Virus record (IMG/VR): IMGVR_UViG_3300029914_000143
Location: 1 to 23,446 of that record
Strand: one strand, 5' to 3'
DNA length: 23,446 nt
Origin: a virus
Below are positions 3,161 to 22,933 of the stretch, in pieces (position 1 is the first letter of the stretch; the number at the start of each line of letters is the position of its first letter). The position numbers were made by a program, and so were the translations under genes. The notes beneath the pieces are model-generated. The model ran no database searches. It had not been told where the DNA came from and worked only from the letters and a program-made list of their open reading frames with translations.

Positions 3161-3300
3161 TTGATGCTCCCACGGCAAGCCGTGGGATTCTCGTTAGGCT
3201 TGAGCATAATCTGCTCCAGCGTTCCGAAGGGCGTTACCAATACAGCCCACATCCACCGCACTGAGGATGGATGTACTGAACACAGACCAGCCACGCTTAG
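3161..3300 (-). ncRNA. Putative omega RNA of TnpB (right end of the first IS605 element)
   Basis: In TnpB systems the guide RNA scaffold overlaps the 3' end of tnpB and stops at the right end of the element, with the guide read from the adjoining DNA. Here the expected terminal hairpin (3169-3186) and the end GAGCATCAA are present directly after the tnpB stop. The guide would begin at 3160 and run leftward (AGTTGAGTATTACCC on the minus strand). The 5' limit is arbitrary; I infer the RNA from architecture only. Confidence 0.5.
3169..3186 (-). repeat. Right-end subterminal hairpin of the first IS605 element
   Basis: CCCACGGC-AA-GCCGTGGG is a perfect 8-bp palindrome with a 2-nt loop, flanked by GAGAAT and AGCATCAA on the minus strand. 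It is the expected single-strand binding site for a Y1 transposase and also the last stem of the omega RNA. Confidence 0.7.
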
Positions 3301-4258
3301 CAATATTAAAGCCAGCGTTGGCGTCCCTATGCTCGTTATGTAAGCAAACTGAGCAGTGATATTGCTTCCCGTTTGGTTTGTTGATACTACCGCATCTGGA
3401 ACATTCTTGACTGGTATAAGCAGCCGGAACCTCCAAAAGCGTTACGCCACGCAAAGCTGCTTTGTAGCGAAGGAAGGTAAGTAACTGGAAGTATGCCCAT
3501 TGGGATTTTTCTACGAACTTGCGGATTTTCCCTTTACGCACCCCTGCTAAATCTTCCACTGCCACGCACAGACGATGTTCTGCGGCGTAGTCAACAACGG
3601 TTTTGCTTACGATATGGTTCTGATGGGTTGTGCGGCGTGACTGCTTACGCCGGATTTTGTTTAATAGACGGAACTTGCCCGCAGCCTGAAGATTGCTTCG
3701 TCTACCCTTACTTACTGATTTTGTTTTAGCCGGATCATACCCTAACCTACGAACATGCCCGGATTGTAAGTCGGACATTACGGCGATGTTGCCCACGGCA
3801 TTACGGTCTACTCCGAGGCACCCCACTGGATTGTAATTTGGTTCTGGAATGACATTGTAGACGATTGAGGCGTACCAAACTCCCTCCCGTTTATACAACT
3901 CGGCATAACGGATAAACCCCTCCGGTCTACGGCTCCATACAACCGGAATTACGGATTTACCAAAAATTGCAGGAATTCGTATCCCCACCTCAACCAACTT
4001 GATTTGTTTACCTTTGTCCCCACAAACAGGCAGGACGAGGTGAGATACCGACTTACACTTTTTATCCTTCTGATACTTGGCAATGAGGGATTTAGCAATC
4101 ACGCTGGGGATTTCTGGGTAGTATTTACTGCTTGATTCCTTGCGGTTGAGTAGCATAGAATGAACACAGATGTTCGCTTTATCCAGAAGAGAATCCAGAT
4201 GGGCACTAAACGAATCGGAAATCTTGATTTTAATACAGCAAGTCACTGTGTTTATCAT
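3194..4258 (-). CDS. tnpB: TnpB, RNA-guided RuvC-like nuclease (OrfB of IS605)
   Basis: OMEGA-type nuclease of the IS605 family; known TnpB proteins cut DNA next to a short transposon-adjacent motif under guidance of an RNA made from the element's right end. Counting from the ATG at 4258, the RuvC-like catalytic residues are visible: Asp151 in GVDRNAVGN, Glu235 in AVEDLAG, and Asp312 in EHRDANAG. A zinc finger lies between the last two (CSRCG and CSVC). The N-terminal beta-strand start INTVTCCIKIKI supports the 4258 start over the in-frame ATG at 4270. At about 354 aa it is slightly short for the family, with the N-terminal domain looking compressed. Its 5' end overlaps the divergent tnpA by about 60 bp. 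All catalytic residues are present, so it may be active. Confidence 0.88.
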   Translation of the reverse strand: MINTVTCCIKIKISDSFSAHLDSLLDKANICVHSMLLNRKESSSKYYPEIPSVIAKSLIAKYQKDKKCKSVSHLVLPVCGDKGKQIKLVEVGIRIPAIFGKSVIPVVWSRRPEGFIRYAELYKREGVWYASIVYNVIPEPNYNPVGCLGVDRNAVGNIAVMSDLQSGHVRRLGYDPAKTKSVSKGRRSNLQAAGKFRLLNKIRRKQSRRTTHQNHIVSKTVVDYAAEHRLCVAVEDLAGVRKGKIRKFVEKSQWAYFQLLTFLRYKAALRGVTLLEVPAAYTSQECSRCGSINKPNGKQYHCSVCLHNEHRDANAGFNIAKRGWSVFSTSILSAVDVGCIGNALRNAGADYAQA

Positions 4259-4618
4259 CTCACTGTCCATGTTGTGCTCTGCACTAAGTTCCGTAGAAAA
4301 ATCCTTACACCTACAATTAGCAAGTCTCTTTACTTTGTGCTTGGTGAACTCGCTAAAGAACTACACTGTTCTATTACTGAAATAAATGGAGAAGCAGACC
4401 ATATCCATTTTCTTTTGTCCTATCCGCCCACCGTCCAGTTATCCACAATCGTTTCCATCCTCAAATCCAAGTCCGCTCAAGTTATCCTTAACATCTACGG
4501 CTCTTTCTTCTGGGGCAACCATAAAAGAACCATGTGGAGCAGCGGTTACTTCCTTTGTTCCGTAGGAGGAGCTACTTTGGAAGTTCTCAAGAAATATATT
4601 GAGAATCAAGGTAAATAG
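4199..4618 (+). CDS. tnpA: TnpA, Y1 HUH-type transposase of IS200/IS605 family
   Basis: Single-strand transposase that excises and inserts IS200/IS605 elements through a 5'-phosphotyrosine intermediate. The HUH motif is visible as DHIHFLL, followed by the family sequence GGATLEVLKKYIENQ, whose tyrosine is the expected nucleophile. The N-terminal HCVYHLTVHVVLCTKFRRK is the usual first strand of the fold. I chose the ATG at 4199 (MGTKRIG, 139 aa) because homologues begin just before this strand; an upstream ATG at 4160 would give 152 aa. The gene is divergent from tnpB and overlaps its 5' end, as in the IS605 arrangement but unusually tight. It appears intact and could act in trans on the two other elements in the window that lack a transposase. 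Confidence 0.9.
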   Translation: MGTKRIGNLDFNTASHCVYHLTVHVVLCTKFRRKILTPTISKSLYFVLGELAKELHCSITEINGEADHIHFLLSYPPTVQLSTIVSILKSKSAQVILNIYGSFFWGNHKRTMWSSGYFLCSVGGATLEVLKKYIENQGK

Positions 4619-4621
4619 CCT

Positions 4622-4662
4622 CGCCCCTTACCCACCGCAAGCGGAGGGATTGCGGGGCGAAT
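4622..4662. repeat. Left-end subterminal hairpin region of the first IS605 element
   Basis: A nested structure: inner CCCACCGC-AA-GCGGAGGG (4631-4648, one mismatch) inside an outer CGCCCC/GGGGCG stem. The minus-strand context CGCAATCCC resembles CGCAAGCCC at the left end of the second TnpB element, which supports its role as a transposon end. Confidence 0.55.
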
Positions 4663-4743
4663 TGGTTCAGGAACTTAGTACAACACAGTTCTACTTATGA
4701 GTTCGGAAGTTGAAACCCATCTGACTTATTTTGCACAAAAGGA

Positions 4744-4769: not shown

Positions 4770-4792
4770 GTAAATCATTGAAAACTAATTGC

Positions 4793-5761
4793 TTAGTTCT
4801 CGCCTACGTTCGTGGTGCTGTTTACGGACAGGTAGCGGCCAGTTACTGTGAGACGCTGAACTCCTGACGGATTGAAGACGAGGAAGCCCAAATTCTCGAA
4901 GATGCTGAAGCCGATTTGGCGAAGATCAGGACGATCTGCACTCATCACGGTCAACGGAATACGCTCCGGGATGACACCAAGGAACTCAGCATCGGCCAGA
5001 ATGTACACGCAACCATAACCAACCTTACGGGACTGGAGTAGAGTTGCGCCCCAGAGGTAACCCATAATGCCAGTCTTCAAAAGCTTGCGCTGTGTTTCAC
5101 GGTCAATGTTCTGTTGAGTCCACTTCAGCAAGTCCGTATAGTCGCGGGGGTTGAAGAAGCAGAAAGCAACTGACAAGTCGTGACGCTGTACCTGACCGAA
5201 ACCATCAGCCATGCTGTTGATGTCGATAGGTGCGGAAATCGGGATGTCCGGGTTGTAGATCGTGTCAGTAGACGACTTGCTTGCGGCGGCCAGAGCCACT
5301 GAGTCGAAAATTCCGAATACATAACCATCTTCGGCGGCTCCAACTTCAGCCTTCGAGAGGTTAAGAGCACGAGCTACTAGGTCAAAGCGACGTTCCTTGA
5401 TCTGCGTAATCGGAATCATCGGGTTAGAGACGATTTCGAAAGTAGGAACGGTTACACGCTTCGGCTTGGTGACGCGGACGATGTCTCCACCCTCTTCGCC
5501 GACCACAAAAGCTTCGACAAATGAACCACCAGCGGTTGAGCCGACAGTCTGAGCGGAGGTATCAAATTCCTTGTCATAGATGGGCAGAGCACCATCGGGA
5601 AGGGTTTCGACCATAAGAGCCTTACGAGCAATGCTCATGTAGTCACGACGACGGCGAAGGCTCGGCCCGAGAGAAGCTGCAAGCTTCTGACGACCACCCG
5701 CCGTTTTCAAGAGCTGACCCAGCATCGCGGTCTGTTGCTGAGTGCGAGAAAGATTTGCCAT
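4793..5761 (-). CDS. Putative major capsid protein (HK97-like fold)
   Basis: A 322-aa protein with AAGGA 8 nt before the ATG and a strong terminator after it, as expected for a highly expressed late gene. The N-terminal 45 residues are basic and helical (RTQQQTAMLGQLLKTAGGRQK...), a common pro-arm-like start. The middle has PTFEIVSNPMIPITQIKERRFDL and the C-terminal half has GVIPERIPLTVMSADRPD and FLVFNPSGVQRLTV. These resemble the E-loop/P-domain regions and terminal strands of capsid proteins in large myoviruses. Position supports the call: it comes last after the protease, scaffold-like and small head gene. No single signature residue proves it; structure prediction should show the HK97 fold if I am right. 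Confidence 0.65.
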   Translation of the reverse strand: MANLSRTQQQTAMLGQLLKTAGGRQKLAASLGPSLRRRRDYMSIARKALMVETLPDGALPIYDKEFDTSAQTVGSTAGGSFVEAFVVGEEGGDIVRVTKPKRVTVPTFEIVSNPMIPITQIKERRFDLVARALNLSKAEVGAAEDGYVFGIFDSVALAAASKSSTDTIYNPDIPISAPIDINSMADGFGQVQRHDLSVAFCFFNPRDYTDLLKWTQQNIDRETQRKLLKTGIMGYLWGATLLQSRKVGYGCVYILADAEFLGVIPERIPLTVMSADRPDLRQIGFSIFENLGFLVFNPSGVQRLTVTGRYLSVNSTTNVGEN

Positions 5762-6448: not shown

Positions 6449-7057
6449 ATGAGGTACACCATCTACCTAGTCACCTGTACTGTAACTGGCAAATATTATG
6501 TTGGTCAGACCATGCGGCCACTAAAGGTACGCTGGCGAGTACACTGTAACGCGGCTCGAAAAGGAGTAATAACTCACTTCTACAACGCCATCCGTAAGTA
6601 TGGGTCTGAAGCTTTCATCATTGAATCGTTGGTTGATGGGTTGCCAACTAAAACGGCTGCGGACTTGATGGAGAAGGTATGGATAGTGGCTTTGAACGCC
6701 CGAGACAGAGAGTACGGTTACAATACAACCAGTGGCGGGGACGACCCACCCTCACACAAAGGGGTTACTCGTTCCAAAGAAACTCGACGCAAAATGGCTG
6801 AGTCTAAGCGAGGAAGCAAAAACTCGCAGTTTGGTAAAATCCCGAAAAATACTTACACTATCGAAAATAACCCCAATCACGGCAAGTCACATTCACCTGA
6901 AGTAATAGAGAAGATGCGTGAGGCTCAACGCAAACGATGGGCTGACCCTAACAGCTATACGCGGATTAGAAGCTGCACATGCAGCCGTACGGGGCAGCAA
7001 ACGGGGCTCCCCAAGTCCCGAAACCCGTGCCAAAATAAGTGCCGCCACTATAGGTAA
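6449..7057 (+). CDS. GIY-YIG homing endonuclease with NUMOD3 motifs, frameshifted near its C-terminus
   Basis: A free-standing homing endonuclease on the opposite strand to the structural genes. The N-terminal GIY-YIG domain (about residues 1-95) shows YTIYLVTCTVTGKYYVGQT, the arginine region RWRVHCNAA, HFYNAIRKYGSEAF and a later GYNTTSGGD. A NUMOD3-like DNA-binding motif follows (SKETRRKMAESKRGSKN). After about residue 168 the sequence becomes atypical and Cys/Arg-rich. Another frame encodes a second NUMOD3-like copy, GSKRGSPSPETRAKISAATI, ending at TAA 7077-7079. One extra base near 6956 would explain this, so the original product was about 209 aa. There is no clear Shine-Dalgarno before the ATG. 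Its shift may be real decay or a sequencing error. Confidence 0.8.
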   Translation: MRYTIYLVTCTVTGKYYVGQTMRPLKVRWRVHCNAARKGVITHFYNAIRKYGSEAFIIESLVDGLPTKTAADLMEKVWIVALNARDREYGYNTTSGGDDPPSHKGVTRSKETRRKMAESKRGSKNSQFGKIPKNTYTIENNPNHGKSHSPEVIEKMREAQRKRWADPNSYTRIRSCTCSRTGQQTGLPKSRNPCQNKCRHYR

Positions 7058-7124: not shown

Positions 7125-9386
7125 TTAGTATTCGTCGTTGTTGAAGAGCATCTCACCGAGGTCTACCGTCTTTACCTTCTTGTCAGAGGCTACGATAGGC
7201 TTGATGCGTTTCAGGGTAGCCGATGACTTGGGAGCTTCGAGCTTCGGCTTGGAGTCCTGCGGAAGACGCTTCGCACCTTGTTCTTCGGGTGTGATGTCCT
7301 CGATTGCATCCGCCCACAGGTCGCCCATATGGTCAGATTCAGTGTCGCGGGTCTCGGCTTCAGTCTCCTCGTTCTCGAAGTGATTGGCAGCTTCACCAGT
7401 GGAGGATGGAATGAGTTCCATACCAGCCACTTCTTGTGCAGTCTTCAGAGAGCCCATCAAGGAAGCAAGCGGATCGCCGTCTGCACCCTGCATCGAGAAG
7501 ATGCTCTGCATGTCGTTGGCGTAGTGGTCGGCCATCGAAGCCTCTAGGTTGGTGGGTTCGAAATCTTCACCACCACTAGCGGTTACGCTGTCGCCGTCTT
7601 CGTCTTCGTTGGCAAGAGCAGACTTCTTTTCTTCCAAATTGCCGTCGTTGAACATTTGGTCAAAGTCGAGTTCCTTGCCTTCTTCTGCAACTTCCTCGCC
7701 TTCGCCTTCCAGCTCGTCGCCAGTGGCTTCCAGCTCGTCGCCTTCGCCCATTAGCTCGTCGCCTTCGCCCATTAGCTCGTCGCCTTCGCCCTCTAGCTCT
7801 TCACCGTCCATGACCCCACCAAAATCCGGCTCTTCATTCTGTTCGCCGAGGAGTTCGGTTTCGAGCGACTTGATGGCACCAAGAGCCTCGTCAACCTTTT
7901 CCTTGATAATTTCGGTGTCGCCTTCGACCTTAAGGTCTTGGCCAGTTGCTTCAGGAGCGCCCTCTTCAGGCAACGCACCCTCATCCATCGGGGGCATTCC
8001 ACCATCTTCTGCGGGTGCTTCAGCAGCTTCTGGTGCCGGGGGCATCGGAGCTTCAGCAGGGGGAGCGGCAGGAGGCATATCTTCAGGGGCGGCGGTCTTC
8101 GAGCAATTCTCACAGCCCTTGCAGTCAGCGCCTTCGCAAGCAGCAGCCTTCTTTGCAGAAGCCTTCTTCTCGCCTTCAGACTTATTGACGGTGTCGGCAT
8201 CACGGTCGCCCGCTTTACCTGCGTCAATCTTGGACAGGTCGCCCTTGGTATCAGAGCCTGCACGACCATCATCATACTTGGCTGGCTGTTTGCCACATTC
8301 CTTTGTGTCGTCAGCAACCTTGGTGGCCGCGTTAATCGGCTTGCCGCTCATTTCCTTCTTGATGGCGGCGGTTGCGGCCTTGTCTTCACCTTCAGCACCC
8401 TCGTTCAGGGTCTTCTTGGCTTCAAGGGCAATCTTGGTGTAGTGTGAGTTAATCGCGGTCTGACGCAGAGTAGCCTTCAGGACGGATGTCTTGTTCTGAA
8501 GCAGGTTGGACGCGAAAGCCTTCTGGAATTCGACGGGAGCAGTAGGCAGCATAGTTTTGGCAATCGTCCAAGCCGCTGCCACACGAGTCTTCGCTTCCTT
8601 GGTAATCGCCTCCCGCTTAGTTTTTACCTCGGCCAGCTTTTCAATTAGCGAAGGCTTGGTTGGATTTGCCATAGTAATGTCACCTTTCTTCGATGTGGGG
8701 CGTAGATTGCCCGTTCTACCTTGAGGTTGATAGTTCTTTTTCTCGTTAACTTGGGATTTCTTGCTTGCCATAGTAGGAGCAAGAGGCGGCTGTATGGTCT
8801 CGGCTTCTGGGGATTCTTGACCGACAAGGCTGTTATCCATGCCCATCGAATCCTCTTCAGGAACAACTACATCAAGAGGGTCATCGGCTGGTGGTAGTGC
8901 GGCAGGTGCTGCTGGTGCGAGGAGGTCTACGGGAGCGGCCATGGGGTCACCCATGCCACCGGAGTCCCCACCTGCGATATCTGTGAACTGCTGATCTAGG
9001 TTATTGAGGTCGGCCTTGACATCTTCCGACCAATCACCAGACTTGAATTTTTCCCATTCGGTAATGAGTTGGACACGCTCACGCATAGAGCGAATTTCCT
9101 TCTCCAGTTCCTCCCGCTTTTCGGCGAGTAAGTCGAACTTGGCGGAGCCGCCAGTGTCACCCACGGGCATTGTAGAGTCCAGTTCAGTGATTTCGCCGTC
9201 TAGCGCGTCGAGTTCGGCGATTTTGTGAGATAGAGCTTGCTTCGTGGCAGAGATACCCATACCCTTCAGCGATTTCTTGTCCTCTTTTGTCAGAAGCTTT
9301 TTCTTCACTTGTTCTTTTTCCTTCTCAGAGAGGGGCTGCTTTTCGTCGAGGGGCTGCTTTTCGTCACATTTCTTAGAGGTCGCCAT
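7125..9386 (-). CDS. Large acidic scaffold-like head assembly protein
   Basis: A 753-aa low-complexity protein directly after the protease; the ATG shares its A with the upstream TAA stop (TAATG), implying translational coupling. Residues about 20-135 are highly charged and helical, probably a coiled coil. Residues 165-185 are Ala/Pro-rich. A Cys cluster (CEGADCKGCENC) lies near the middle, followed by Pro/Ala- and Glu-rich linkers. Around residues 529-565 is an acidic 7-residue repeat, GEGDELM. An internal ATG at 8672 (residue 239) has its own ribosome-binding site and could give a 515-aa shorter form. Scaffolds next to head proteases are often acidic, helical and translated from internal starts, which suggests the role. 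No homology is certain, and a virion-internal core protein is an alternative. Confidence 0.5.
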   Translation of the reverse strand: MATSKKCDEKQPLDEKQPLSEKEKEQVKKKLLTKEDKKSLKGMGISATKQALSHKIAELDALDGEITELDSTMPVGDTGGSAKFDLLAEKREELEKEIRSMRERVQLITEWEKFKSGDWSEDVKADLNNLDQQFTDIAGGDSGGMGDPMAAPVDLLAPAAPAALPPADDPLDVVVPEEDSMGMDNSLVGQESPEAETIQPPLAPTMASKKSQVNEKKNYQPQGRTGNLRPTSKKGDITMANPTKPSLIEKLAEVKTKREAITKEAKTRVAAAWTIAKTMLPTAPVEFQKAFASNLLQNKTSVLKATLRQTAINSHYTKIALEAKKTLNEGAEGEDKAATAAIKKEMSGKPINAATKVADDTKECGKQPAKYDDGRAGSDTKGDLSKIDAGKAGDRDADTVNKSEGEKKASAKKAAACEGADCKGCENCSKTAAPEDMPPAAPPAEAPMPPAPEAAEAPAEDGGMPPMDEGALPEEGAPEATGQDLKVEGDTEIIKEKVDEALGAIKSLETELLGEQNEEPDFGGVMDGEELEGEGDELMGEGDELMGEGDELEATGDELEGEGEEVAEEGKELDFDQMFNDGNLEEKKSALANEDEDGDSVTASGGEDFEPTNLEASMADHYANDMQSIFSMQGADGDPLASLMGSLKTAQEVAGMELIPSSTGEAANHFENEETEAETRDTESDHMGDLWADAIEDITPEEQGAKRLPQDSKPKLEAPKSSATLKRIKPIVASDKKVKTVDLGEMLFNNDEY
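7711..7809 (-). repeat. 21-bp tandem repeat inside the scaffold-like gene
   Basis: The motif AGCTCGTCGCC (plus strand) recurs at 7711, 7732, 7753, 7774 and, with variation, 7795: five units exactly 21 bp apart. Two central copies (AGCTCGTCGCCTTCGCCCATT) are identical. They encode the acidic heptad-like repeat GEGDELM/EGEGDEL. Nearly identical DNA suggests recent expansion or slippage. Confidence 0.9.
8670..8690 (-). promoter_or_regulatory. Internal ribosome-binding site and ATG in the scaffold-like gene
   Basis: On the minus strand GAAAGGTGACATTACTATG places AAAGGTG 8 nt before an in-frame ATG (8672-8670). The new start, MANPTKPSLIEKLAEVKTK, begins a well-formed helical segment after a linker. 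The shorter protein would have 515 residues. This is the arrangement of nested scaffold genes in other phages, but expression cannot be shown from sequence. Confidence 0.45.
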
Positions 9387-10255
9387 TATCGTAAATTTCT
9401 CCCGCGTAGGTCATCTTCATTCATGAGAACCTCGCCTACATCTAGTTTCGAAGCTACTTTACTATACATATTGGTATTTGCTGCCTTACGGGTGTAAGGA
9501 GTCTTCGGGCCTATCCATTCGTCCGCGACAGTTGACTGCTTATCTGCACCGGGGAAAGCGGGGGTACCTACCCAAGAAGCTTCGACAAACTTCACTCCGC
9601 CATTAGGGAGTGAGGCATGGCCGCAGAGTTCCGCGACACGTCGGGCCACGCCATCTTCATCAGCAAGGAAAGTCCCCTTCTGATAGGAGAGGTGACCACA
9701 GTAAGTATTTGCGTCGGTAACATGTGACCCACAGAAAGAACAGATGACAAGGTCAGTCACGCACCCCATGGAGAGGTAGCGAACCTTACCCTCCCGGATG
9801 TCTGAGACCAGTTCCTTGTGGGCAGTATCAGTGGCTACGAGGATGTCGCAGAAATATACCCAAACTTCAGGGGGGGCGATTTGAATCTTACGCAGGACTG
9901 CGTCAAGGATGTGCCCCTTGGCATACTTGGAATTCTGGAAGTGCTCGACAAAGTTGAAAGCCCCAACAAACGAGCGGTGCGACAACTTCAATACTTCGTT
10001 AGTCCACGCATCGTCGTTGTTATTGACGAGGTGGCTGCATTCCGGCTTAATCAAGTAATCGTAGGGGCTAGCCTCTGTCTGTACCGATGCCATGATGGTG
10101 CAATGGCTAAGCAAATACTTACTGGTGTCCGCCCCAATTTTGGAGAAGGAAGCGGTCTTACGCCCGAATGTATGTTGACCATACATCTTCTCCCAATCAG
10201 TCATTCTCAAGATTGGTTCATTAAGTTGGGCATTCGCTATTTTCTTAAACGACAT
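9386..10255 (-). CDS. Putative prohead (capsid maturation) protease with zinc-binding motif
   Basis: A 289-aa protein whose layout fits phage prohead serine proteases of the herpesvirus-assemblin type. His105 in GAFNFVEHFQNS and Ser162 in VRYLSMGCVTDL are candidate catalytic residues, separated by HILDAVLRKI and YFCDILVATDTAHKELV. It contains CSFCG...CGHL (Cys172, Cys175, Cys186, His188), a small zinc knuckle. The closing sequence VEASWVGTPAFPGA is typical of these proteases, just after the core domain. The 3' end overlaps the start of the scaffold-like gene by one base (TAATG), the usual protease-scaffold-capsid order. The ribosome-binding site (AGAGTG) is weak and lies just downstream of the TnpB-only element. 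Confidence 0.65.
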   Translation of the reverse strand: MSFKKIANAQLNEPILRMTDWEKMYGQHTFGRKTASFSKIGADTSKYLLSHCTIMASVQTEASPYDYLIKPECSHLVNNNDDAWTNEVLKLSHRSFVGAFNFVEHFQNSKYAKGHILDAVLRKIQIAPPEVWVYFCDILVATDTAHKELVSDIREGKVRYLSMGCVTDLVICSFCGSHVTDANTYCGHLSYQKGTFLADEDGVARRVAELCGHASLPNGGVKFVEASWVGTPAFPGADKQSTVADEWIGPKTPYTRKAANTNMYSKVASKLDVGEVLMNEDDLRGRNLR

Positions 10256-10302
10256 ATGTTCACTCTAATCTAGAGGTAGATAGTTGAAATTTTCCAGCTC
10301 TA

Positions 10303-10450
10303 TTGATGCTCCCAGAGTAAACTCTGGGATTCTCACTCTACACACAGATTACTTCCTGCGTGTTAGCGAATGATGGCTCCATCCGAGCCAAAATAACTTG
10401 TGCTGCTGCTGTATCCCGATGTGTGGTGTATCCACACTTTTCGCAATTGT
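10303..10450 (-). ncRNA. Putative omega RNA of the second TnpB
   Basis: The 3' end of tnpB and the right-end hairpin (10311-10328) have the architecture of a TnpB omega RNA ending in ATCAA at 10303. The guide would start at 10302 and read TAGAGCTGGAAAATTTC on the minus strand, the non-coding leader of the protease gene. The 5' limit is a guess; expression is not shown. Confidence 0.5.
10311..10328 (-). repeat. Right-end hairpin of the TnpB-only element
   Basis: CCCAGAGT-AA-ACTCTGGG is a perfect 8-bp palindrome. Its flanks, TTGATGCTCCC on one side and GGGATTCTC on the other, match the right end of the first IS605 element, while the stem interior differs with compensating changes. Confidence 0.75.
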
Positions 10451-11435: not shown

Positions 11436-11466
11436 CTCTCCTCCTATCTGTGTGGTGGCTCGCTAA

Positions 11467-11484
11467 CCCAGACAAATGTCTGGG
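11467..11484 (-). repeat. Left-end hairpin of the TnpB-only element
   Basis: CCCAGACA-AA-TGTCTGGG is a perfect 8-bp palindrome with a 2-nt loop, 24 nt inside the inferred left boundary at 11508 and upstream of tnpB. Confidence 0.7.
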
Positions 11485-11496
11485 CTTGCGCTCGTA

Positions 11497-13107: not shown

Positions 13108-13265
13108 ACTGTCACCGCCATTACCGAAACCGTAGGTTTCATCTCAAGGTATGTAATTAACTTTTGAAGGTGGTCTCCATCCGCAGCTTTGGAGGGTTTA
13201 GAGAAGTTGGCGACTATCGACAACTTCTCTAAACCACACTTCATACATGCTTTTACTCTATCCAT
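13104..13265 (-). CDS. Small ORF between sheath and the 144-aa gene, possible zinc-finger fragment
   Basis: An ATG overlaps the sheath TGA (TGATG, 13267-13263) and the ORF ends in TGA overlapping the next GTG start; I give 53 codons. The sequence KACMKCGLEKLSIVANF followed by KPSKAADGDHLQ resembles the first half of a phage zinc-finger/HNH-type module (CxxCGxEKxxxxF...DGxH), but the second Cys pair is missing. The coding region holds a perfect 15-bp inverted repeat. It could be a decayed homing-endonuclease remnant or a reinitiation ORF rather than a functional gene. No ribosome-binding site is evident. The start is taken at about 13265. Confidence 0.35.
   Translation of the reverse strand: MDRVKACMKCGLEKLSIVANFSKPSKAADGDHLQKLITYLEMKPTVSVMAVTV
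13195..13235. repeat. 15-bp perfect inverted repeat (strong hairpin) downstream of the sheath
   Basis: GGTTTAGAGAAGTTG at 13195-13209 and its exact reverse complement at 13221-13235 enclose 11 bases. There is no T-tract on either side, so it is not a standard terminator. It may be an mRNA processing or attenuation site or the remains of an inserted element. Confidence 0.9.
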
Positions 13266-16200
13266 CAGAGTGTCGTCGTGACGGTAAATGTCACGCTGAT
13301 GTACAGGAGTGAGAACATCGGCTTGAACGATACGGTGACATCGACTGTCGTCGGGTCGTCTGGGTCTTGTACCACACTCAAGTTCTTGTACCCGGTGATA
13401 ATCTCGTTCGATACATAGCTGCGTAGGAGCGAGTTGCACACGGTGGTGATGTCGGTTACCAAGGCATCCACCAGCTTGCGGCCAATGAACTGCTGTAGGC
13501 CAGCACGGAAGCCCTGACGGACATAGTCAGTAACCGTGGTGCAGGTCGGTTCCGAGGTAATCGGGTTGCTCGGGTCGGTGGACTTGTAGTGACGGATGTT
13601 GAGTGCTCCGTTGTTGTCGGTCAGGAGAATCAAACCATCCGACGCCATCAGGTTCATCGTGGTGTCATCGTACTTCGTGAGGAGGCGGGTGAACCCGACC
13701 AACTCTTGGTTAGTAAGGGTGGTAGCCACATCGTTGGACGGGTTGGCGTTTAAGCCAGCCAGTGCCGCCGCCATGAACTCGCCGGATACCGCATACTCGA
13801 CTGCTACACCTGTCTGCGAGTCGGTAATCTCAAGTCCTGCGACTGGGGTACCGATTGCCATGATACGTGCATTCTTTAGCGAACGGGCGTAACCGCGTGC
13901 AACTGTTGGGGTGGTGAACTGGTTGAAGCCCACAAACCCGATAGCCTCACCCTTGTTGCGGACAGTTGCCTGAGTGGTAAGTTGACGGCTCAAGAACTGC
14001 TGCACAGTCAGTGATGTGGTCAGCGGAATGATGATGTCAGCCTTGTATGCCGAACCCGGAAGAGCGACGGTCAGTGTCTGAAGTGCAGCGATGAAAGCTG
14101 CGTCCGAAGCGGTGTTCATCCCAGTCTGCTGAGGTACCTGAATGGCTCCGAAAACTTGAGCACCATTCTGGTTCATCAACTGGATACCCAGCGACAAACG
14201 GTTGACCGTGGAGGGCTGGCCGTAGGCCGCGTAGGCATCGGCTACGTTGGTGTAAATCTTGATTGCCATGTCCGCTGCGGTCTTAGCAACCGTGAAGGAG
14301 ACATAGTAAAACTCACCAACGTTAGGCTCATCACCGGACTTGTTGAAGGTGTCGATAATAGCCGTATCACCCGCGTTCGAACCGAAAGTCGTGACCACCT
14401 TAGTGTACAGACCCGGAATCGCAATGAGGTTATTCGGTACTGCTGCACCGTACGGGAAGTAAGTCGAGCCCGTGTAACGGGGCGTCTGTGCAACCGTGAA
14501 GTAGAGCTTGTCGCCCGGTGCGAAGTAGTAGCCGTTTGGTCGAATGGTGTAACCGTAGTTCAATGCTTGGTACGGGTCAACAATCGTGAACTTCAGGTTC
14601 GTCTGGGCGTCGATGTAAGTCTGACCCAAATAACCGATACCTTCAGAACCACCAGTTGCCAACGATGAGGTAACCATGAAGCAGTTCGCGTAGGTGTTGG
14701 CCGTGAGGTCTACACCACCCGCCAGAGGAACTGCGGAAGCGATGACGACTTGACCAGAAGTCGCTGTTACCCCATCTGAAGCCGCCAGAATAACACCACC
14801 ATCCGTAGTAGCAACAGATGGGAACAGGGAGATTACGTGGGCAATCGTGCGGGTTGACGTACCGTTGTTAATGTCAATGGTAACCACATCCCCAGCTACC
14901 GTAACAGCAGAGCCGTCAGGAGTTCCTTGGGTGGACGAAGTGAAGACAATGCTGACTTGATCGCCCGCCGAACCGGGAGTGGAGGCTGTGAACCGGATAC
15001 CTTGAGTCGTGACGGTCGCAGGGATTGGAACCTGACTGAGGTCGGTTGGTCCTCCTGTTGGGCCAGCAATGAAGGTCAAAGTAACAATCTCAGGAACAGC
15101 ACCGGGAGCAGCGTAGAGGTCGGAGATAGCATTCGGCCACACGATTCCGGTGTTGGTGAAGTTCCCTACGGGCTCATTCGGACCGGAGGTGACGGAAACC
15201 ACCGGGAGTACATTGCCCAACTCATCGGTAATGGTATAAGTTCCCTGACCAGTTGCCCCCGGGGTGACAACCGATACCGTGTAGGCATGGTCGTTGAGGG
15301 TGTTACGGTTGTAGGTGACATACACATTCTGACCAGCTTGAGGGGGGTTGTATAGGGTGGCTACGCCTGTGGCTCCGTCGAGCTGAGCAACTGACACTAC
15401 ACCAGAAATCATGGCTTCGTTGGGGTCAACTCCAACGTAAACCTGAATCTTGCTTGGGTCATCAGTGGCCTTATCCAAGCCAGAGCCATCCGTCGGGGAA
15501 TCCGACAAGGTAAAGGCGGTCTTGGTTCCGTCCCCAGTACCTACAAACTGGAGGTATAGCTTTTCGTCAACCAGTGTGGTGGTAATTTGGGTCGGGCCGA
15601 AGGCGGTATAACCCGAGGTAGCGACCCCGGAAGAAACTGAGCTGGAGCAACCCCAGTTGATGATCCCGTTACCCGTAGCATCAGTACCGAGGACGTAGTC
15701 AGTATCCAAGATGTAATCGCTGCGGTCAGGACCGAGACCCACCATCGTGATGCTGGCGACGTTTGAAGCCGGGAGCAAGTCGTAGGTGTTCTGGTAGTTG
15801 TTCGTGTAGTAGGTGACGGTAAGTTGCGAACCCGCAGGTACCGGAGTAGCCAGAGTGACCAGACCGTTAAGCCCGTCTACTGCCGACACCGCAACGGGTA
15901 TGCTGTTCAGGTACGCGGTAACATCTGAGGTCGTGGTGGTAACCACGCCGCCATTGGTTCCGTCTACGATGGGAACATTCTTTACCTTGAAGACTGTGTT
16001 GCTGTTCGGACCTGCTCCGCCCGTAAGGAAGGAGGCTGCCACTGGTGTTCCAGAGGAGGCGACCAGTAGTCCAGTTCCCACCGCGTTCGCTGCTACAAGA
16101 TAGCCAGCCGAGGCGGTGAGGATTCCGCTGCCATTGACCAGATTCTGTAGGTCAACCACAGTGCGGGTGCCACCAACCTTGGAGATGTTAATCGTGATGT

Positions 16201-16876
16201 TGTTGGTGCCGTAGCCACTCACAGCAAGGGCGTCTACAACCGGGGTACCTGCCACGAAAGTGAGGTTCACAAGGTTGCCAACTGCACCGGGGAGCTTGGT
16301 GGTGAGGGTGACACTGGAGCCTACCGTTGCAGAGGCAACCGTCAGGCTGGCATAGACAGGAATCTGAGGCGTCAGATTCTCAGTTGAAATCAAGGTGTCC
16401 GTGCGCTTGAAGTAGTAGGAAATTTCAAGGTTGGCACCTGCAAGTACAATGTCTTGAGTGGCGAACTGGCCAGTGGTGCCATTGAGGGAGATGACCGTCA
16501 CGGGGACGCCATCTGCTGTAACCTGAATCTTGGTTACATCATTGGTCACTGTTCCTGTTCCGTCTCCCGCGACCACTGGAAAGTAGGTCGTGTTGAAGAA
16601 ACGGCCAGTGGTGTTAGTGTACTGAGTCGTCCCGATGAAGTATTGAGTTCCAATACCTGCTTGGTCAGAAATGTTCTCGTTGACCACTTGGTCGTCGGCA
16701 ACTGAAGAGGAACCACGGTGGAGTTCCACATTGGTCTGGGCTGGGCCAGCAAAGTAAAGCGGTGCCTCACCAATAATAACGGGAATGCGGGCGTCACCGA
16801 ACAGGGGCTGTCCCCCGTCGTCTATAACCACCGACGTGTAAACACCGGGCTGGGCGTACGAGCCAAAAAGTGCCAT
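13265..16876 (-). CDS. Contractile tail sheath protein with inserted beta-repeat domains
   Basis: A 1203-aa protein with ribosome-binding site TAGGAG 8 nt before ATG. The N-terminus PGVYTSVVIDDGGQP with IPVIIGEAP is a typical sheath start. The last 300 residues have the conserved sheath C-terminal domain: FVGFNQFTTPTVARGYARSL, ADGLILL-like ASDGLILLTDNNG, VTDYVRQGFRAGLQQFIGRKL and a final strand segment VDVTVSFKPMFSLLYISVTF. Between about residues 100 and 725 it carries extra beta domains. One repeat (GDGT...IxV...DGxTGxVTL...G..VxVTYY) occurs near 103-160, 293-360 and 447-526. A second (PGAxGNxVxLxF...) occurs near 185-290 and 628-724. Usual sheaths have roughly 400-700 residues, so this one is strongly enlarged, probably with surface-exposed domains. 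Confidence 0.88.
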   Translation of the reverse strand: MALFGSYAQPGVYTSVVIDDGGQPLFGDARIPVIIGEAPLYFAGPAQTNVELHRGSSSVADDQVVNENISDQAGIGTQYFIGTTQYTNTTGRFFNTTYFPVVAGDGTGTVTNDVTKIQVTADGVPVTVISLNGTTGQFATQDIVLAGANLEISYYFKRTDTLISTENLTPQIPVYASLTVASATVGSSVTLTTKLPGAVGNLVNLTFVAGTPVVDALAVSGYGTNNITINISKVGGTRTVVDLQNLVNGSGILTASAGYLVAANAVGTGLLVASSGTPVAASFLTGGAGPNSNTVFKVKNVPIVDGTNGGVVTTTTSDVTAYLNSIPVAVSAVDGLNGLVTLATPVPAGSQLTVTYYTNNYQNTYDLLPASNVASITMVGLGPDRSDYILDTDYVLGTDATGNGIINWGCSSSVSSGVATSGYTAFGPTQITTTLVDEKLYLQFVGTGDGTKTAFTLSDSPTDGSGLDKATDDPSKIQVYVGVDPNEAMISGVVSVAQLDGATGVATLYNPPQAGQNVYVTYNRNTLNDHAYTVSVVTPGATGQGTYTITDELGNVLPVVSVTSGPNEPVGNFTNTGIVWPNAISDLYAAPGAVPEIVTLTFIAGPTGGPTDLSQVPIPATVTTQGIRFTASTPGSAGDQVSIVFTSSTQGTPDGSAVTVAGDVVTIDINNGTSTRTIAHVISLFPSVATTDGGVILAASDGVTATSGQVVIASAVPLAGGVDLTANTYANCFMVTSSLATGGSEGIGYLGQTYIDAQTNLKFTIVDPYQALNYGYTIRPNGYYFAPGDKLYFTVAQTPRYTGSTYFPYGAAVPNNLIAIPGLYTKVVTTFGSNAGDTAIIDTFNKSGDEPNVGEFYYVSFTVAKTAADMAIKIYTNVADAYAAYGQPSTVNRLSLGIQLMNQNGAQVFGAIQVPQQTGMNTASDAAFIAALQTLTVALPGSAYKADIIIPLTTSLTVQQFLSRQLTTQATVRNKGEAIGFVGFNQFTTPTVARGYARSLKNARIMAIGTPVAGLEITDSQTGVAVEYAVSGEFMAAALAGLNANPSNDVATTLTNQELVGFTRLLTKYDDTTMNLMASDGLILLTDNNGALNIRHYKSTDPSNPITSEPTCTTVTDYVRQGFRAGLQQFIGRKLVDALVTDITTVCNSLLRSYVSNEIITGYKNLSVVQDPDDPTTVDVTVSFKPMFSLLYISVTFTVTTTL

Positions 16877-17631: not shown

Positions 17632-19179
17632 TTAAGAATAACTACTTATGAAAGAAGTTGTCCCAAAAGCCCTCATCTGGGGGGCTAACTGTATCTTGCC
17701 TTGAAAGTCATTAACATACGCGGTCTCAGTGACCTCAAGGTGGGTAAGTCTAGTAACTAACGGGCGGTAGACCTTCCAATCCGCCGCCGCAGTGACTGTG
17801 ATGGTGTAGGTGTAGCTGGGTGCGGTGCCTGATGGGTCACGCTGTTCCCCACGGTAGGAGCGGGGCATATCATAGATGGTCACCCCGTCTGCCTCCATAT
17901 TCTCCCGACGCATAACAAGGAGCTGCTGTTTCAGGAGTTCGCTAATATCTGAGGAGGTCTGTAGGTCGTTAGCTCTAACCTCGATGGTGAAGTTCAAGCT
18001 TTCTTTCGAACCGAATACCTCATAGGTCTCGGTAACAGTCGGGGAGACAATAATGGCTATCTGGTCACCCACGAGGACTGAGTCACCCATGGCGAGGTTG
18101 AGGCCGGGGATGATGTTGCTATTGAGGTTGTACTTCTTGGCCACTGCTTGGGTCTGCCCCGCGTCGATACGAACCTCCCAACGTACCCACTCACCCGGCT
18201 TCAGCAATGTTGGGAGGGTATAAGTCCCATCCAAATTCGCATCCACGTTCAGGTAGTCACCTGAGCTGGTGTGAATGAACACCTGTCCAATAGTTTCGGT
18301 GGGGAGGATGCCAAACGGAATGATATTCTCCGGGTTCGTTCCAACAACGGAGGCGGGGTCGGCCTTCATCACCACGTTGGCGGTAATAGTCGAACCGGAA
18401 GGGGTGTACTCACTAAGCTGCACGCGGTTGAAACCGCAGATGTTGTAGTCGATACCGAGACGCAGCTTGTAGCCCGTCTGGTCGGTGAGAGAGAAAGAGA
18501 TTACCGAAGACCCACCCGGTATGGCTATCATTGTTTCTGTGCCAGTAGCCAGAGCGGGGTAGACCACTGTGCTCACAGTTCTCTGGTACCAATAGTCAAC
18601 CATTGGAGTGAGGGTTGTTGTTCCTTGGTTCAGAACCAAAGTTGTCACGGGCTGAAGCAAGAATACATAACTCAGAAATCCCTCAATTTGAACGGGGAGC
18701 CCAGTGGCAGCATCTGAAGCAGTAAGTGTGGTGCCGTCCACCGAGGGGCTCAAATAGGCCACCGACCCTTGGGCGTTCTTAAATCCGCCCTCTTTCCAGC
18801 GGTACTGGTGGATAGTAACTCCCACATTGTTGGTCTTGGGGTCAACTGAGTCTACATTAATATAGTAGACACCTGCTTCAGGAGTAAGCCGGGTTTTGTC
18901 TGTCTCTTGAATCCATTCGATAAACGAGCCGTCACACTGTTCCACCTTGGCTGCGAGGGCACGGCCATACTGCTTGCACATAAAATAGTCAGGGGAGAGC
19001 CGGTTGCCTTGGGTGGAGATGTCCTTAATTGATATTCGGACATCGCCCCACATAACCATACTACTGTCAGAGAAAGTAACCTTTCCCAGTGTGCTCTTGA
19101 ACCTCGGGTTACGATTCACCGCGTCAGTAATGACTCTCAAAAGATACGACATCAAATTTGCGCCCGTGAGGTCTAGCAT
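17632..19179 (-). CDS. Unidentified phage virion structural protein (515 aa)
   Basis: The ATG at 19179 has AAGGAG 8 nt upstream, located inside the end of the overlapping GIY-YIG ORF. The N-terminal 60 residues are mixed helical (NLMSYLLRVITDAVNRNPRFKS). The rest is mostly beta and rich in Thr, Val and Gly (TLVLNQGTTTLTPMVDYWYQRTV, GYKLRLGIDYNICGFNRVQL). The C-terminal part has WEVRIDAGQTQAVAKKYNLN and YEVFGSKESLNFTIEVRANDLQTSSDISELL, which look like a virion domain rather than an enzyme. Position near the sheath suggests a neck, adaptor or baseplate component. I recognise no family with confidence. Confidence 0.75.
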   Translation of the reverse strand: MLDLTGANLMSYLLRVITDAVNRNPRFKSTLGKVTFSDSSMVMWGDVRISIKDISTQGNRLSPDYFMCKQYGRALAAKVEQCDGSFIEWIQETDKTRLTPEAGVYYINVDSVDPKTNNVGVTIHQYRWKEGGFKNAQGSVAYLSPSVDGTTLTASDAATGLPVQIEGFLSYVFLLQPVTTLVLNQGTTTLTPMVDYWYQRTVSTVVYPALATGTETMIAIPGGSSVISFSLTDQTGYKLRLGIDYNICGFNRVQLSEYTPSGSTITANVVMKADPASVVGTNPENIIPFGILPTETIGQVFIHTSSGDYLNVDANLDGTYTLPTLLKPGEWVRWEVRIDAGQTQAVAKKYNLNSNIIPGLNLAMGDSVLVGDQIAIIVSPTVTETYEVFGSKESLNFTIEVRANDLQTSSDISELLKQQLLVMRRENMEADGVTIYDMPRSYRGEQRDPSGTAPSYTYTITVTAAADWKVYRPLVTRLTHLEVTETAYVNDFQGKIQLAPQMRAFGTTSFISSYS

Positions 19180-19463
19180 TGTGCCGCTCCTTTATTCGAA
19201 GTTTGTTGTTTTCGTAGCCGCCACAATTCGGGGAGAGTAGACACCTCGTGGAGTATGGAGATATTGAAGGCGTCAGAACCGTACTTACGAATGGCGTTAT
19301 GAAGGAGGGGAGAGCTTCTCCTGTGTGCATCAGCTAAGTGCTGTGCCCACCGTTGCTCAACTGTACGAACCGTTTTTCCAATGTAGACTTTACCGTTGAT
19401 TTTGTTGGTTATTTTGTAGATAAACATGGGTGCCCCTATGAGAGGCACCCATAGTTCAATCAT
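19173..19463 (-). CDS. Short GIY-YIG endonuclease, probably truncated
   Basis: The GIY-YIG fold is clear: MFIYKITNKINGKVYIGKT, then RWAQHLADAHRR and LLHNAIRKYGSDAFNISIL. The natural start may be the ATG at 19427 (MFIYK) rather than 19463. The ORF ends after the LHEVSTLPELWR segment, which lacks the later part of the domain (the catalytic-Glu and NG/GYN region) and any DNA-binding tail. It overlaps the start of the 515-aa gene by seven bases and contains that gene's ribosome-binding site. The N-terminal half resembles the plus-strand GIY-YIG at 6449. It looks like a deletion remnant of a free-standing homing endonuclease. Its start codon lies in a hairpin. Confidence 0.75.
   Translation of the reverse strand: MIELWVPLIGAPMFIYKITNKINGKVYIGKTVRTVEQRWAQHLADAHRRSSPLLHNAIRKYGSDAFNISILHEVSTLPELWRLRKQQTSNKGAAQC
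19426..19452 (-). promoter_or_regulatory. Hairpin covering the start codon of the GIY-YIG remnant
   Basis: ATGGGTGCC (19426-19434) pairs with GGCACCCAT (19444-19452), 9 bp with a 9-nt loop. On the minus strand the 3' arm contains most of the ATG at 19427-19425. T4 homing endonuclease genes are known to have hairpins that block translation on read-through transcripts; the same role is an inference here. It could also act as a weak terminator after the 171-aa gene, though no T-tract follows. Confidence 0.45.
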
Positions 19464-19468
19464 TCAGC

Positions 19469-20335: not shown

Positions 20336-21628
20336 TCATCGTTGAATTTTTCCAAACACTACGCTTCGGCCTATTGGAATCTCCACCTCATTCTCCCAAA
20401 CCTTTCCCGGCTGCAATCTGGCATCCCAGACGGGTTCTCCGTTACCCGTCTGCGCTCCGGGCTCACCCCCTTGGAGGGGATTGCGGATAATCGGGTCGTA
20501 AACGGTAGGTAGCCCGGTGTTGAGGGGGATCAGATAACGGGTATCCCCTGGATTGAGAAGATTTGTATTAAAGTCCTGTTGAAGAAGAATCCCGCGAGGA
20601 GCCTTATAGGTCACCCCAGAAACCACCAGCCGTTCACCGTTGCGGCGAACAATCAGGTCACCATCTTGTGTAATTGGAGTCGGGCCGAGGTACCCGCGAG
20701 ATTCACGAGTAGATTTGATACCCCCGCCTTCATCCAATTCACGAGTAAGAGCAGAGTCGGGCGGGACGTAAGTAATGTCATAAGGGCCGTAGTATCCCCC
20801 TACAAACCCCACCTCGAAGCAGGAGGGACACCCCGTGCGCGGCTGTCCTAAGCCAGACTCAGAGCCTCGGCAAGCGCAGATTTCGCCCCGAGTCTTACGG
20901 AATAGGATATAGGCTGGTTCGCCCACTTGTTCGAATAGCCACTGATTGCGGTTAATCATCTCGCGGTATTCCCAAGTGAGTTGGTCAACCTCCATGGTGT
21001 TTACAACTTTAGTGCCCGGGGCTCCCGGTGGGTGCGTCTCGCCGTGGTCGCCGATGGGCACCACGCAGTAGAATGTGCGAACCATTGAAGTATAAATGTC
21101 AACGTAGTTCGCCAACCTCTTGTAGATTACTTTGATCTCCTTTACCCCAGAGTAATCCGTAATATTGATGTTGTCTGTGTACGCTTGGGCTTGAGCGCTT
21201 ACTCCACCACCATAGGGCAGGGTGTTGTCTCTCTGGAGCCAGACGGTCTGGTCGATTCCTACCACCATCACCGGGCGCATAGGAACGCCGTCCAGAAACA
21301 CCTGCACATCATCCGGGGAGTTGGCGATAGTGGGGCGGCCTGTCACCACATCCGAGTAGATGGGCTCTGGTAGTTTGAACCCCCATTTACCCAATCTACC
21401 GTCATCCCGCCAGTCTTTCTCCTGCACGACGTAGGTTACCTCTTCTAGGCAAACTTGGTCACGGTAGAAGTGCCCTAGCCATGGGTGGGCGTTCAGCTTA
21501 ACCCAGTTAGTCGGATAGTCAAAGGCTCGGTAAAGGTTGTAACCTTTAGTAGAGGCTGGGTCATCCACCCACCACAAATCCCGGCTTCCACAGTAACTGG
21601 AATTCATAACTATAAGGTTTGGTATCAT
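20336..21628 (-). CDS. Phage structural protein with FN3-like N-terminus and cysteine cluster (430 aa)
   Basis: The N-terminus LWWVDDPASTKGYNLYRAFDY with a later HFYRDQV is FN3-like (W, GYN-YR and FYRD landmarks). Further on the protein is mixed beta (GKWGFKLPEPIYSD, DDVQVFLDGVPMRPVMVVG). Residues 251-270 hold CAC...CPSC, a likely metal site. The C-terminal third is Gly/Pro-rich with VRRNGERLVVSGVTYK. It resembles virion proteins near the neck of large myophages but I cannot name it. No Shine-Dalgarno is visible before either ATG (21628 or 21607), because the IsrB element is inserted just upstream. The ATG at 21628 overlaps the IsrB TGA (ATGA). Confidence 0.75.
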   Translation of the reverse strand: MIPNLIVMNSSYCGSRDLWWVDDPASTKGYNLYRAFDYPTNWVKLNAHPWLGHFYRDQVCLEEVTYVVQEKDWRDDGRLGKWGFKLPEPIYSDVVTGRPTIANSPDDVQVFLDGVPMRPVMVVGIDQTVWLQRDNTLPYGGGVSAQAQAYTDNINITDYSGVKEIKVIYKRLANYVDIYTSMVRTFYCVVPIGDHGETHPPGAPGTKVVNTMEVDQLTWEYREMINRNQWLFEQVGEPAYILFRKTRGEICACRGSESGLGQPRTGCPSCFEVGFVGGYYGPYDITYVPPDSALTRELDEGGGIKSTRESRGYLGPTPITQDGDLIVRRNGERLVVSGVTYKAPRGILLQQDFNTNLLNPGDTRYLIPLNTGLPTVYDPIIRNPLQGGEPGAQTGNGEPVWDARLQPGKVWENEVEIPIGRSVVFGKIQR

Positions 21629-22713
21629 CTGATTTTACGCTGCGGAACCTCGCCGTTTACGGCGGGGAGGAGCAGCGTTCTCCATGTGTTAAACGCCAGA
21701 AATTTGCAATCTTCTGGCTTAAAGTTCTGACCCATGCGTTTGCCTGTACTGACATCGTGCAGGCTAATGCGCCCAGAACTCGTCCCGCCGACATAGGCGA
21801 GACCTTTCTTGATGTGCTTGACCAGCGACCCACGGGTAAAACCCATGCTTTGCGTCCCGCCGTAGTTCTTACGGATGCCGCCTTCTGCGAAATTCTGAAC
21901 ATGCAACTGGCGGCGATGAAACCGCAACGGGGTGATAGTGCGAACCCGTGTATTTTCTGGTTTTACGTGCCCTCCGACGAACCAGTTGGCGAGCACCCAC
22001 GAATCGACACAGTGTGCATAGAAACTCTTCGAGGATTTATCCTTGAGCTTCTTGAGGCCCATCTGTGTCCGCATCCCGAAGGTTTCCCAACCTTCTCTTG
22101 TTTCCACACGTCCCAGTTTGCCCAACTCGGCGTAGAACCATTTCTTGCCTACTTCGAGCGGACTGAAGTTGCCGTTGAAAGCCTTTGCTGCACCCTGTTC
22201 CTGCCCGAACGCTTTGTAGGCATCCTTGTATTTCTTGGTTCGTGCTTTGATATCCTCCACCACAAATGTGGTGATGGGATACATTTTCTGGAGCCAGTTA
22301 GCAATACGCAATTTCCAACCCCAGCGTGCCCTTGTCGAAGGCGGAAGTCTGAATCCAACTCCACGATTCCAACGACATTGGCGGTACGGAGTCTTTCTGT
22401 TGCGCCTAGACCTACGCAAGTTTCTGCGAGTCTCAACTGCATCCTTGACCCACGTGACGGCCTCGGCGTTCAAATTCTCAAACGTGTGGGCCTCTGACAC
22501 TACACTGAAACCCTCGAACTTGCTGCCGGGGTCAATCCCGAGAGCTATCGGTTGTTTCTCTCTGGCGGAAGGTTCCATGTTAAGACGGACACAGAAAATT
22601 CCCCGCTTCCAGAAAGGCGTGGCTTTGCGAGTTTTAATCCACGACGCAGCACGGTTGGCTGTGGTCGGCATCAGCGGATTTTGGTTAACATCAACAACAG
22701 GAACGAATAACAT
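21625..22713 (-). CDS. isrB: IsrB-type OMEGA nuclease (IscB-like, HNH domain absent)
   Basis: IscB/IsrB family, relatives of the ancestors of Cas9; IsrB proteins known so far nick one DNA strand under guidance of an omega (HEARO) RNA. From the ATG at 22713 (362 aa): PLMP-type N-terminus (VNQNPLMPTT, residues 9-18), RuvC-I with Asp61 (LGIDPGSKFEG), an Arg-rich bridge helix (RRNLRRSRRNRK), RuvC-II with Glu153 (VVEDIKAR) and RuvC-III with Asp237 (AHCVDSWVLA). Between RuvC-II and RuvC-III there are only about 80 residues with no HNH signature, which defines IsrB. The C-terminal region RKNYGGTQSMGFTRGSLVK and GRISLHDVSTGKR is the family's adjacent-motif-recognising part. AGGAGG precedes the ATG, separated by a small hairpin. 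The final codons run through the right-end hairpin. Confidence 0.85.
   Translation of the reverse strand: MLFVPVVDVNQNPLMPTTANRAASWIKTRKATPFWKRGIFCVRLNMEPSAREKQPIALGIDPGSKFEGFSVVSEAHTFENLNAEAVTWVKDAVETRRNLRRSRRNRKTPYRQCRWNRGVGFRLPPSTRARWGWKLRIANWLQKMYPITTFVVEDIKARTKKYKDAYKAFGQEQGAAKAFNGNFSPLEVGKKWFYAELGKLGRVETREGWETFGMRTQMGLKKLKDKSSKSFYAHCVDSWVLANWFVGGHVKPENTRVRTITPLRFHRRQLHVQNFAEGGIRKNYGGTQSMGFTRGSLVKHIKKGLAYVGGTSSGRISLHDVSTGKRMGQNFKPEDCKFLAFNTWRTLLLPAVNGEVPQRKIR
21648..21667 (-). repeat. Right-end hairpin of the IsrB element
   Basis: CCCCGCCG-TAAA-CGGCGAGG on the minus strand forms an 8-bp stem with one G-T pair. It lies within the last codons of isrB (AVNGE). Loop and stem length match the left-end hairpin. 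Confidence 0.7.
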
Positions 22714-22933
22714 TGGGCTGTAAGCCCTCCTTTGTACATCTCTTCGACACTGCCCGACGAAGCGGCTGAAAACTAGAGAAGCATTCTCAGCATTCTGTGG
22801 ACTACCACGTCCAGTCGATTCAGTTTGCGATTCCAGACTTAACTGGAACTCGACTTGTCTAGTCAACCGTTTAGTCTCGGGCAGACAACTTGGTTTGTTG
22901 TCTGCTGCAAGCCTCTGGCTTTAGCCAGAGGTG
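22714..22933 (-). ncRNA. Putative omega RNA (HEARO-like) upstream of isrB
   Basis: About 220 nt directly before the isrB ATG are dense in stems on the minus strand: GCCAGAGG/CCTCTGGC (22912-22931), GCAGACAAC/GTTGTCTGC (22881-22905), AGTCGA/TCGACT enclosing TTCCAG/CTGGAA (22813-22855), TGGAC/GTCCA (22798-22813) and GGGCT/AGCCC (22715-22727) just before the ATG. HEARO RNAs of IscB/IsrB lie at this position, with the guide at their 5' end. The guide would therefore come from the flanking 191-aa gene. The limits are inferred. Confidence 0.65.
22726..22731 (-). promoter_or_regulatory. isrB Shine-Dalgarno separated from ATG by a hairpin
   Basis: AGGAGG lies 12 nt before the ATG at 22713, which is too far unless the GGGCT/AGCCC hairpin between them folds. 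Folding of the omega RNA end might therefore adjust isrB translation. Confidence 0.4.

Follow-up and report, generated by a model that had tools for sequence, protein, structure and literature searches.

Do RNA-guided nucleases that lie among the virion genes of a phage spread in the manner of homing endonucleases? The question is raised by the window analysed here, a 23,446-base virus fragment (IMG/VR record IMGVR_UViG_3300029914_000143) assigned to a Tunturi_5-like jumbo myophage, a soil phage. An earlier note on this DNA had listed two TnpB genes, an IscB-like gene lacking HNH and two GIY-YIG genes among virion genes, and had suggested that the OMEGA (obligate mobile element-guided activity) elements fill a homing niche. 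All five genes were found by family searches, although the IscB-like gene, in which HNH is indeed absent, is an IsrB, and one of the two GIY-YIG genes is truncated. Decay of the nucleases throughout, which would have spoken against homing, was not found, since all three OMEGA proteins retain their RuvC acidic residues. We lean, with some reserve, towards the view that the OMEGA elements of this phage behave like free-standing homing endonuclease genes. Seen directly are the anatomy of the elements, their intact catalytic residues, an exact empty site for one of them (element 1), sites shared with GIY-YIG and HNH genes, and the placement of IsrB, with its target-adjacent motif (TAM), at a start codon.

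According to this homing model, each OMEGA element would occupy a tolerated gap between virion genes and make an omega-RNA that takes its guide from the sequence flanking the element; the predicted guides are indeed flank sequence, as the earlier note had proposed. TnpB would cut, and IsrB would nick, the element-free allele, where TAM and target are joined, and the element's own allele would be spared because the element separates the one from the other. In a mixed infection, the empty allele would then be repaired on the template of the element-bearing genome and thereby converted. Element 1 can also transpose by means of its own TnpA, and the second TnpB element (TnpB-2) and IsrB, which have no adjoining transposase, would have to be moved in trans or by homing or recombination. 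Omega-RNA expression, cutting and conversion are steps that we infer.

Element 1 and its empty allele

Element 1 (3161..4665; features are on the minus strand unless otherwise stated) lies between the major head protein gene and a tail gene, with its left end after TGAA at 4666 and its right end reading ...GGGAGCATCAA at 3161. It carries TnpB-1 (3194..4270; PF07282, E=2.4e-19), in which inspection of the sequence revealed the RuvC residues D, E and D and the zinc-finger cysteines, and a Y1 (HUH) transposase, TnpA (4160..4618, plus strand; Y1_Tnp PF01797, E=3e-33), which is intact as judged from its HIH motif and C-terminal Tyr. Because TnpA overlaps TnpB-1, element 1 is a complete insertion sequence (IS) of the IS200/IS605 type.

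In two near-identical phages (contigs L003 and L006) the site is empty and reads TGAA|AGTTGAGTATTACC, with the predicted TAM joined to the target. L003 reads ...GTACTAAGTTCCTGAA|AGTTGAGTATTACCCTTACATGG where the window holds 1,505 bases, with 99.7-100% identity to the window on either side of element 1, and L006 has the same join, readable as far as the end of that contig. Both are otherwise about 100% identical to the window over the shared phage genes, L006 differing within TnpB-2. Comparison with the empty site indicates an element with hairpin ends that was inserted after a fixed motif with no target duplication. Since a second insertion with the left end of element 1, in another viral contig (G031, locus L140), is also preceded by TGAA, this motif is likely the TAM of element 1. 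The predicted TnpB-1 guide, AGTTGAGTATTACCCTTACA (3141..3160), is the flank directly 3' of the right end, and the same bases come right after TGAA in the empty allele too. This empty allele in near-identical phages supports the homing model, as does the isolate Tunturiibacter phage Tunturi_5, whose structural operon is matched in the same order by the minus-strand genes of the window (minor tail protein, tail terminator, sheath, ejection protein, head protease and major head protein) and carries no TnpB, IsrB or GIY-YIG gene in the annotation of its syntenic stretch. The empty sites that the earlier note proposed to look for in relatives exist for element 1, in L003 and L006, but no clean one was found for IsrB or TnpB-2.

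No close bacterial homologue of TnpB-1 was found among genome contigs. In L004, a contig of the same phage, window positions 4705-3139 are absent, that is, element 1 and 64 bases around the insertion point; such a gap would fit end-joining after a cut at the TnpB target, and a plain deletion would fit equally.

IsrB and the start codon of the next gene

The IsrB element (21629..22939) consists of an omega-RNA at its left end, the IsrB gene and a right-end hairpin (21672-21648), followed by ATGA. The gene (21625..22713) likely starts at the ATG at 22713, within an open reading frame (ORF) of 21625-22866 whose stop overlaps the next start. This ORF matches RRXRR (E=6.7e-35), its best solved relative is IsrB 8dmb (E=2.6e-34), and the protein, of about 350 amino acids, has RRXRR/PLMP and RuvC domains and no HNH. 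The omega-RNA (22679..22939), which overlaps the IsrB start, was detected as HEARO (RF02033) in a scan of the whole window (E=9.4e-6), with a match of 42 bits that is under the Rfam gathering score of 83 and spans the full model. It begins at a GTCA common to phage IsrB loci, folds with z=-4.0, and its 5' hairpin is retained with differing bases in 15 phage loci. The predicted guide region (22940..22963) falls in the 3' end of the upstream gene. The idea of an IsrB without a right end was dropped once the hairpin had been found inside the 3' part of the ORF.

In the 18 phage loci with a recognisable IsrB right end, the motif that follows is ATGA in 16, GTGA in one and ATGG in one, so that RTGA occurs in 17 of the 18, which matches the TAMs measured for IsrB proteins, namely NTGA for DtIsrB (at 60 C, TTGA) and, for several other IsrB proteins that include one of viral-metagenome origin, NTG (PMC9581776). 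In 14 of the 18 loci this start opens a frame of 74 codons or more, as compared with 21.6% of RTGA sites in the same DNA; the nominal P=6e-7 is a guide only, given that the motifs were located by eye, the 74-codon threshold was chosen post hoc and some loci are related. In the window and in locus L087 the start codon downstream of IsrB is native, as homologues without IsrB begin at the same residue, and in the Microcystis phage LMM01 IsrB is likewise placed before an annotated gene. This placement at RTGA and a start codon lends support to the homing model.

A clean empty IsrB site was not found, L114 and L127 having longer or different C-terminal tails at that position, and a joined guide and NTGA site was present in none of the loci fetched. 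The Microcystis phage MaMV-DL01, expected to be an empty IsrB allele, has instead an HNH_3 gene (L147:930-1850) at the position of the LMM01 IsrB, within retained left and right HEARO element ends; this replacement of IsrB by HNH_3 also favours homing.

TnpB-2 and the junctions used by protein homing endonucleases

TnpB-2 belongs to an element without TnpA (10303..11491), with a left-end hairpin at 11491-11461 and a right end that reads ...GGGAGCATCAA at 10303. The gene (10338..11435) is ISDra2-TnpB-like (OrfB_IS605, E=3.5e-26; TNB, E=4e-21; HTH_OrfB, E=1.2e-11), and its RuvC residues are conserved in the alignment. The right ends of the two TnpB elements have folding z-scores of -3.2 and -5.1, the latter for TnpB-2. 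Its predicted guide in this assembly (10283..10302) is the flank upstream of the protease gene.

That flank belongs to a join that we regard as suspect and that arose either as a chimera in the assembly or by deletion between copies of TnpB. The contig L110, from the phage of the window, matches the window over 13,144 bases with 11 differences and diverges exactly at the TnpB-2 right end, 10303. Past this point L110 has, in place of the protease flank, a broken GIY-YIG/NUMOD3-type gene, the third GIY-YIG gene of this phage, which lacks its first ~38 codons (homing endonuclease phrog_314, E=1.3e-19), followed by the beginning of a tail-tube gene. The window is without the tail-tube gene and a gene of 639 amino acids that relatives have between the virion gene 'vir' and the protease gene, so that the gene order across 10303 is abnormal. 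In L006, a TnpB located before the protease is ~75% identical to TnpB-2 in its middle, with identical ends, and 10 of the 11 differences between the window and L110 cluster in a 72-bp part of TnpB-2 in which the window matches L006. Such mosaics require two or more copies of TnpB with recombination between them, be it in the cell or during assembly. An assembly artefact, in which TnpB copies with identical ends produced a chimeric join with the protease flank, probably accounts for this part of the pattern, as is suggested by the missing genes, by L110, which runs on from this TnpB end to GIY-YIG and tail tube, and by the mosaics. Against it, the same join of TnpB right end and protease is seen again in the separate contig L006; moreover, element 1, IsrB and the GIY-YIG genes are unaffected and were found again in other contigs, and an artefact of this kind is compatible with homing.

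For TnpB-2, the left ends in the window, L109, L124 and L140 share no agreed motif that could be named as TAM, and among the genome contigs searched there was one bacterial homologue of TnpB-2 (44%), in an Acidobacteria metagenome-assembled genome. The possibility that insertion of TnpB-2 truncated 'vir' was dropped, as the C-terminal tail of this protein varies among relatives. A decayed TnpB remnant of 63 amino acids, 68% identical to TnpB-2, lies between the tail-tube gene and a 783-amino-acid gene at L022:665-853, and an intact TnpB (371 amino acids) directly follows a gene with an apparent intein at L124:1920-6047, a contig with two further TnpB genes.

Of the two GIY-YIG genes in the window, the one at 6449..7057 (plus strand), a free-standing homing endonuclease gene with GIY-YIG and NUMOD3, is antisense between the genes at 7125-9386 and 5790-6290 and looks intact. 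The other (19173..19463; E=1e-9) encodes 96 amino acids, as compared with 153-255 in its homologues in L114 and L116, and, read against these, has lost the catalytic-Glu helix, so that it is probably inactive. The junctions were compared as loci, which are not independent phages, some being copies of one phage. Between 'vir' and the tail-tube gene, GIY-YIG genes occupy three of 21 relative loci, and between the 639-amino-acid gene and the protease gene HNH genes occupy 6 of 39 (two of them checked by family search), the other 33 being empty; at both junctions the phage of the window has a TnpB copy. The junction of the 6449-7057 gene holds GIY-YIG in 25 of 64 loci and that of the 19173-19463 gene in 6 of 11, counts that include contigs of the window's own phage. 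As judged from these sequences, related phages have RNA-guided and protein-guided elements at common intergenic junctions, where the two kinds disrupt each other or take each other's place. The shared junctions, together with the broken GIY-YIG gene that comes after TnpB in L110, support the homing model. In a related phage contig, 3300044801_000124, which has IsrB and the TnpB remnant, inspection of the sequence also disclosed intein-like insertions in the head protease (L022:3298-5457) and minor tail protein (L087:6143-8506) genes.

Cultured phages provide a further case. In mycobacteriophage Scottish, a TnpB gene lies between the tape measure and minor tail genes, after TTTAC, and the insertion is clean, as the PGG-stop at the end of the tape-measure protein is the same whether or not the element is there. 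The occupied site, defined as most of a 3-kb TnpB-bearing stretch, is held by 15 records, whereas 322 records match a 91-base joined-flank query over at least 80% of its length, both counts including GenBank/RefSeq duplicates. The clean insertion and these occupied and joined sites support homing as well.

Homing weighed against transposition and phage benefit

Several observations weigh against homing. For element 1, its transposase is enough to account for an insertion that has an empty counterpart, IsrB should nick rather than cut, and there are deletions or assembly joins at the TnpB-2 junctions. At the IsrB junction in the phage of the window some sequence was replaced, and empty and occupied sites do not form a clean pair, the site comparison was made by locus with some copies of one phage, and the intergenic placement of the elements could reflect purifying selection on random insertions.

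The main rival explanation is ordinary transposition, with harmful insertions weeded out by selection: TnpA, acting in cis on element 1 and in trans on TnpB-2 and IsrB, would move the elements at random, only intergenic insertions would survive, and TnpB and IsrB would serve transposon retention as in bacteria, with no homing from phage to phage. TnpA adjoins TnpB-1, the same element end was inserted elsewhere in another viral contig (G031/L140), and trans mobilisation is possible for TnpB-2, whose ends resemble those of a TnpA-bearing element in L140 and which has a relative with its own TnpA in L109. The suggestion of a homing niche in the earlier note is partly supported, in that junctions are shared with GIY-YIG and HNH genes; the spread of element 1, which has its own transposase, can be explained with no need for homing. 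Still, transposition by itself explains neither these shared junctions nor the exchange of IsrB for HNH in Microcystis phages, nor a TnpA-less TnpB at one fixed mycobacteriophage site, and we consider it less likely than homing. Less probable still is that the elements are kept for a benefit to the phage, such as RNA-guided attack on rival phages or plasmids or gene regulation of the TldR type. TnpB-derived TldR repressors are phage-encoded (PMC13418256), and an element-free rival phage would be cut, given that TAM and target are a virion-gene junction. The RuvC residues are intact, unlike those of nuclease-dead TldR, which ruled out a TldR-type repressor as first choice; furthermore, the L022 remnant has decayed and the elements are patchy in the 30 records of relatives, with TnpB and RRXRR above the cut-off in 3/30 each (the Y1 transposase was above it in 0/30).

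For the TnpB part of homing there is an experimental precedent, as TnpB drives its own IS through plasmid populations by cutting empty copies (PMC11870625). In both cases RNA-guided removal of element-free copies favours the element, but in plasmids this is experimental and here, in phages, it is our inference only. Like free-standing phage homing genes (GIY-YIG and HNH, including the T4 Seg and Mob genes), the OMEGA elements are intergenic among virion genes, at the same junctions in close relatives and with empty alleles in sister phages; unlike them, they would recognise their sites through a flank-copied guide RNA instead of a protein domain. TnpA and TnpB, end hairpins, a right end TCAA and a flank guide are shared with IS200/IS605 elements that carry TnpB (ISDra2, IS608 and, in the Campylobacter phages CP220/CPt10, elements with TnpB only). 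That a single phage can hold such TnpB-only elements together with homing endonucleases has been on record since 2010 (PMC2853527); what differs from such reports is the empty site in a near-identical phage and the junctions shared with homing genes. Similarly, domain content, omega-RNA and an NTGA/NTG-type TAM are common to the IsrB nickases DtIsrB and K2IsrB, the latter from a viral metagenome, with their HEARO omega-RNAs (PMC9581776), from which the phage loci differ in using the start codon of the next gene as TAM. As far as the open-licence literature goes, the sister-phage empty allele, the sharing and exchange of sites and the position of phage IsrB at start codons are new.

A broader proposal, which we put forward tentatively, is that protein homing endonucleases and OMEGA elements can stand in for one another at phage homing sites, and that RNA-guided homing from one co-infecting phage to another is how TnpB and the nickase IsrB spread, each being re-addressed at every new site. 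The IsrB TAM, as the ATGA start codon of the next gene, would hardly be mutable, which would limit escape. If true, RNA-guided homing would be a natural route by which mobile elements spread among phages, and the step from a transposon nuclease to a self-spreading, re-addressable element would be visible in isolates. The intact empty target in a sister phage makes such homing a concrete, testable idea, and the mycobacteriophage set, many of which grow on the laboratory strain M. smegmatis mc2 155, makes the role of TnpB for its carrier testable in mixed infection.

The virion genes around the elements are syntenic with those of Tunturi_5, and no near-identical record of the window was found in the phage collection. 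In order of position, these are the genes of the major head protein (4793..5761; phrog_2522, E=1.2e-40; 71% identical to Tunturi_5 gp334), the head maturation protease (9386..10255; phrog_18299, E=8.2e-14; gp331), the virion protein 'vir' (11497..12657; gp328, annotated as a DNA ejection protein), the tail sheath (13265..16876; Phage_sheath_1C, E=2.5e-7; gp326), a tail terminator homologue (17632..19179; gp324) and a minor tail protein homologue (20336..21628; gp322), whose start codon is the ATGA directly 3' of the IsrB right end. Upstream of IsrB, a further gene of the cluster (22871..23446) has a C-terminal end altered by the IsrB insertion, its relatives having 183 and 308 amino acids. The tail-tube label was read from position and size, as no family matched that gene; in Tunturi_5 that position is taken by gp329, which shares 71% identity with the tail-tube gene found in other relatives. 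Adjoining element 1, a big open gene of at least 1,022 amino acids (3-3068) contains an internal 81-base repeat of ~75% identity and possibly encodes a duplicated tail or beta-helix protein. Finally, the 485-kb huge phage LR745208 (L144) has an IsrB 61% identical to that of the window and a major head protein 50% identical.

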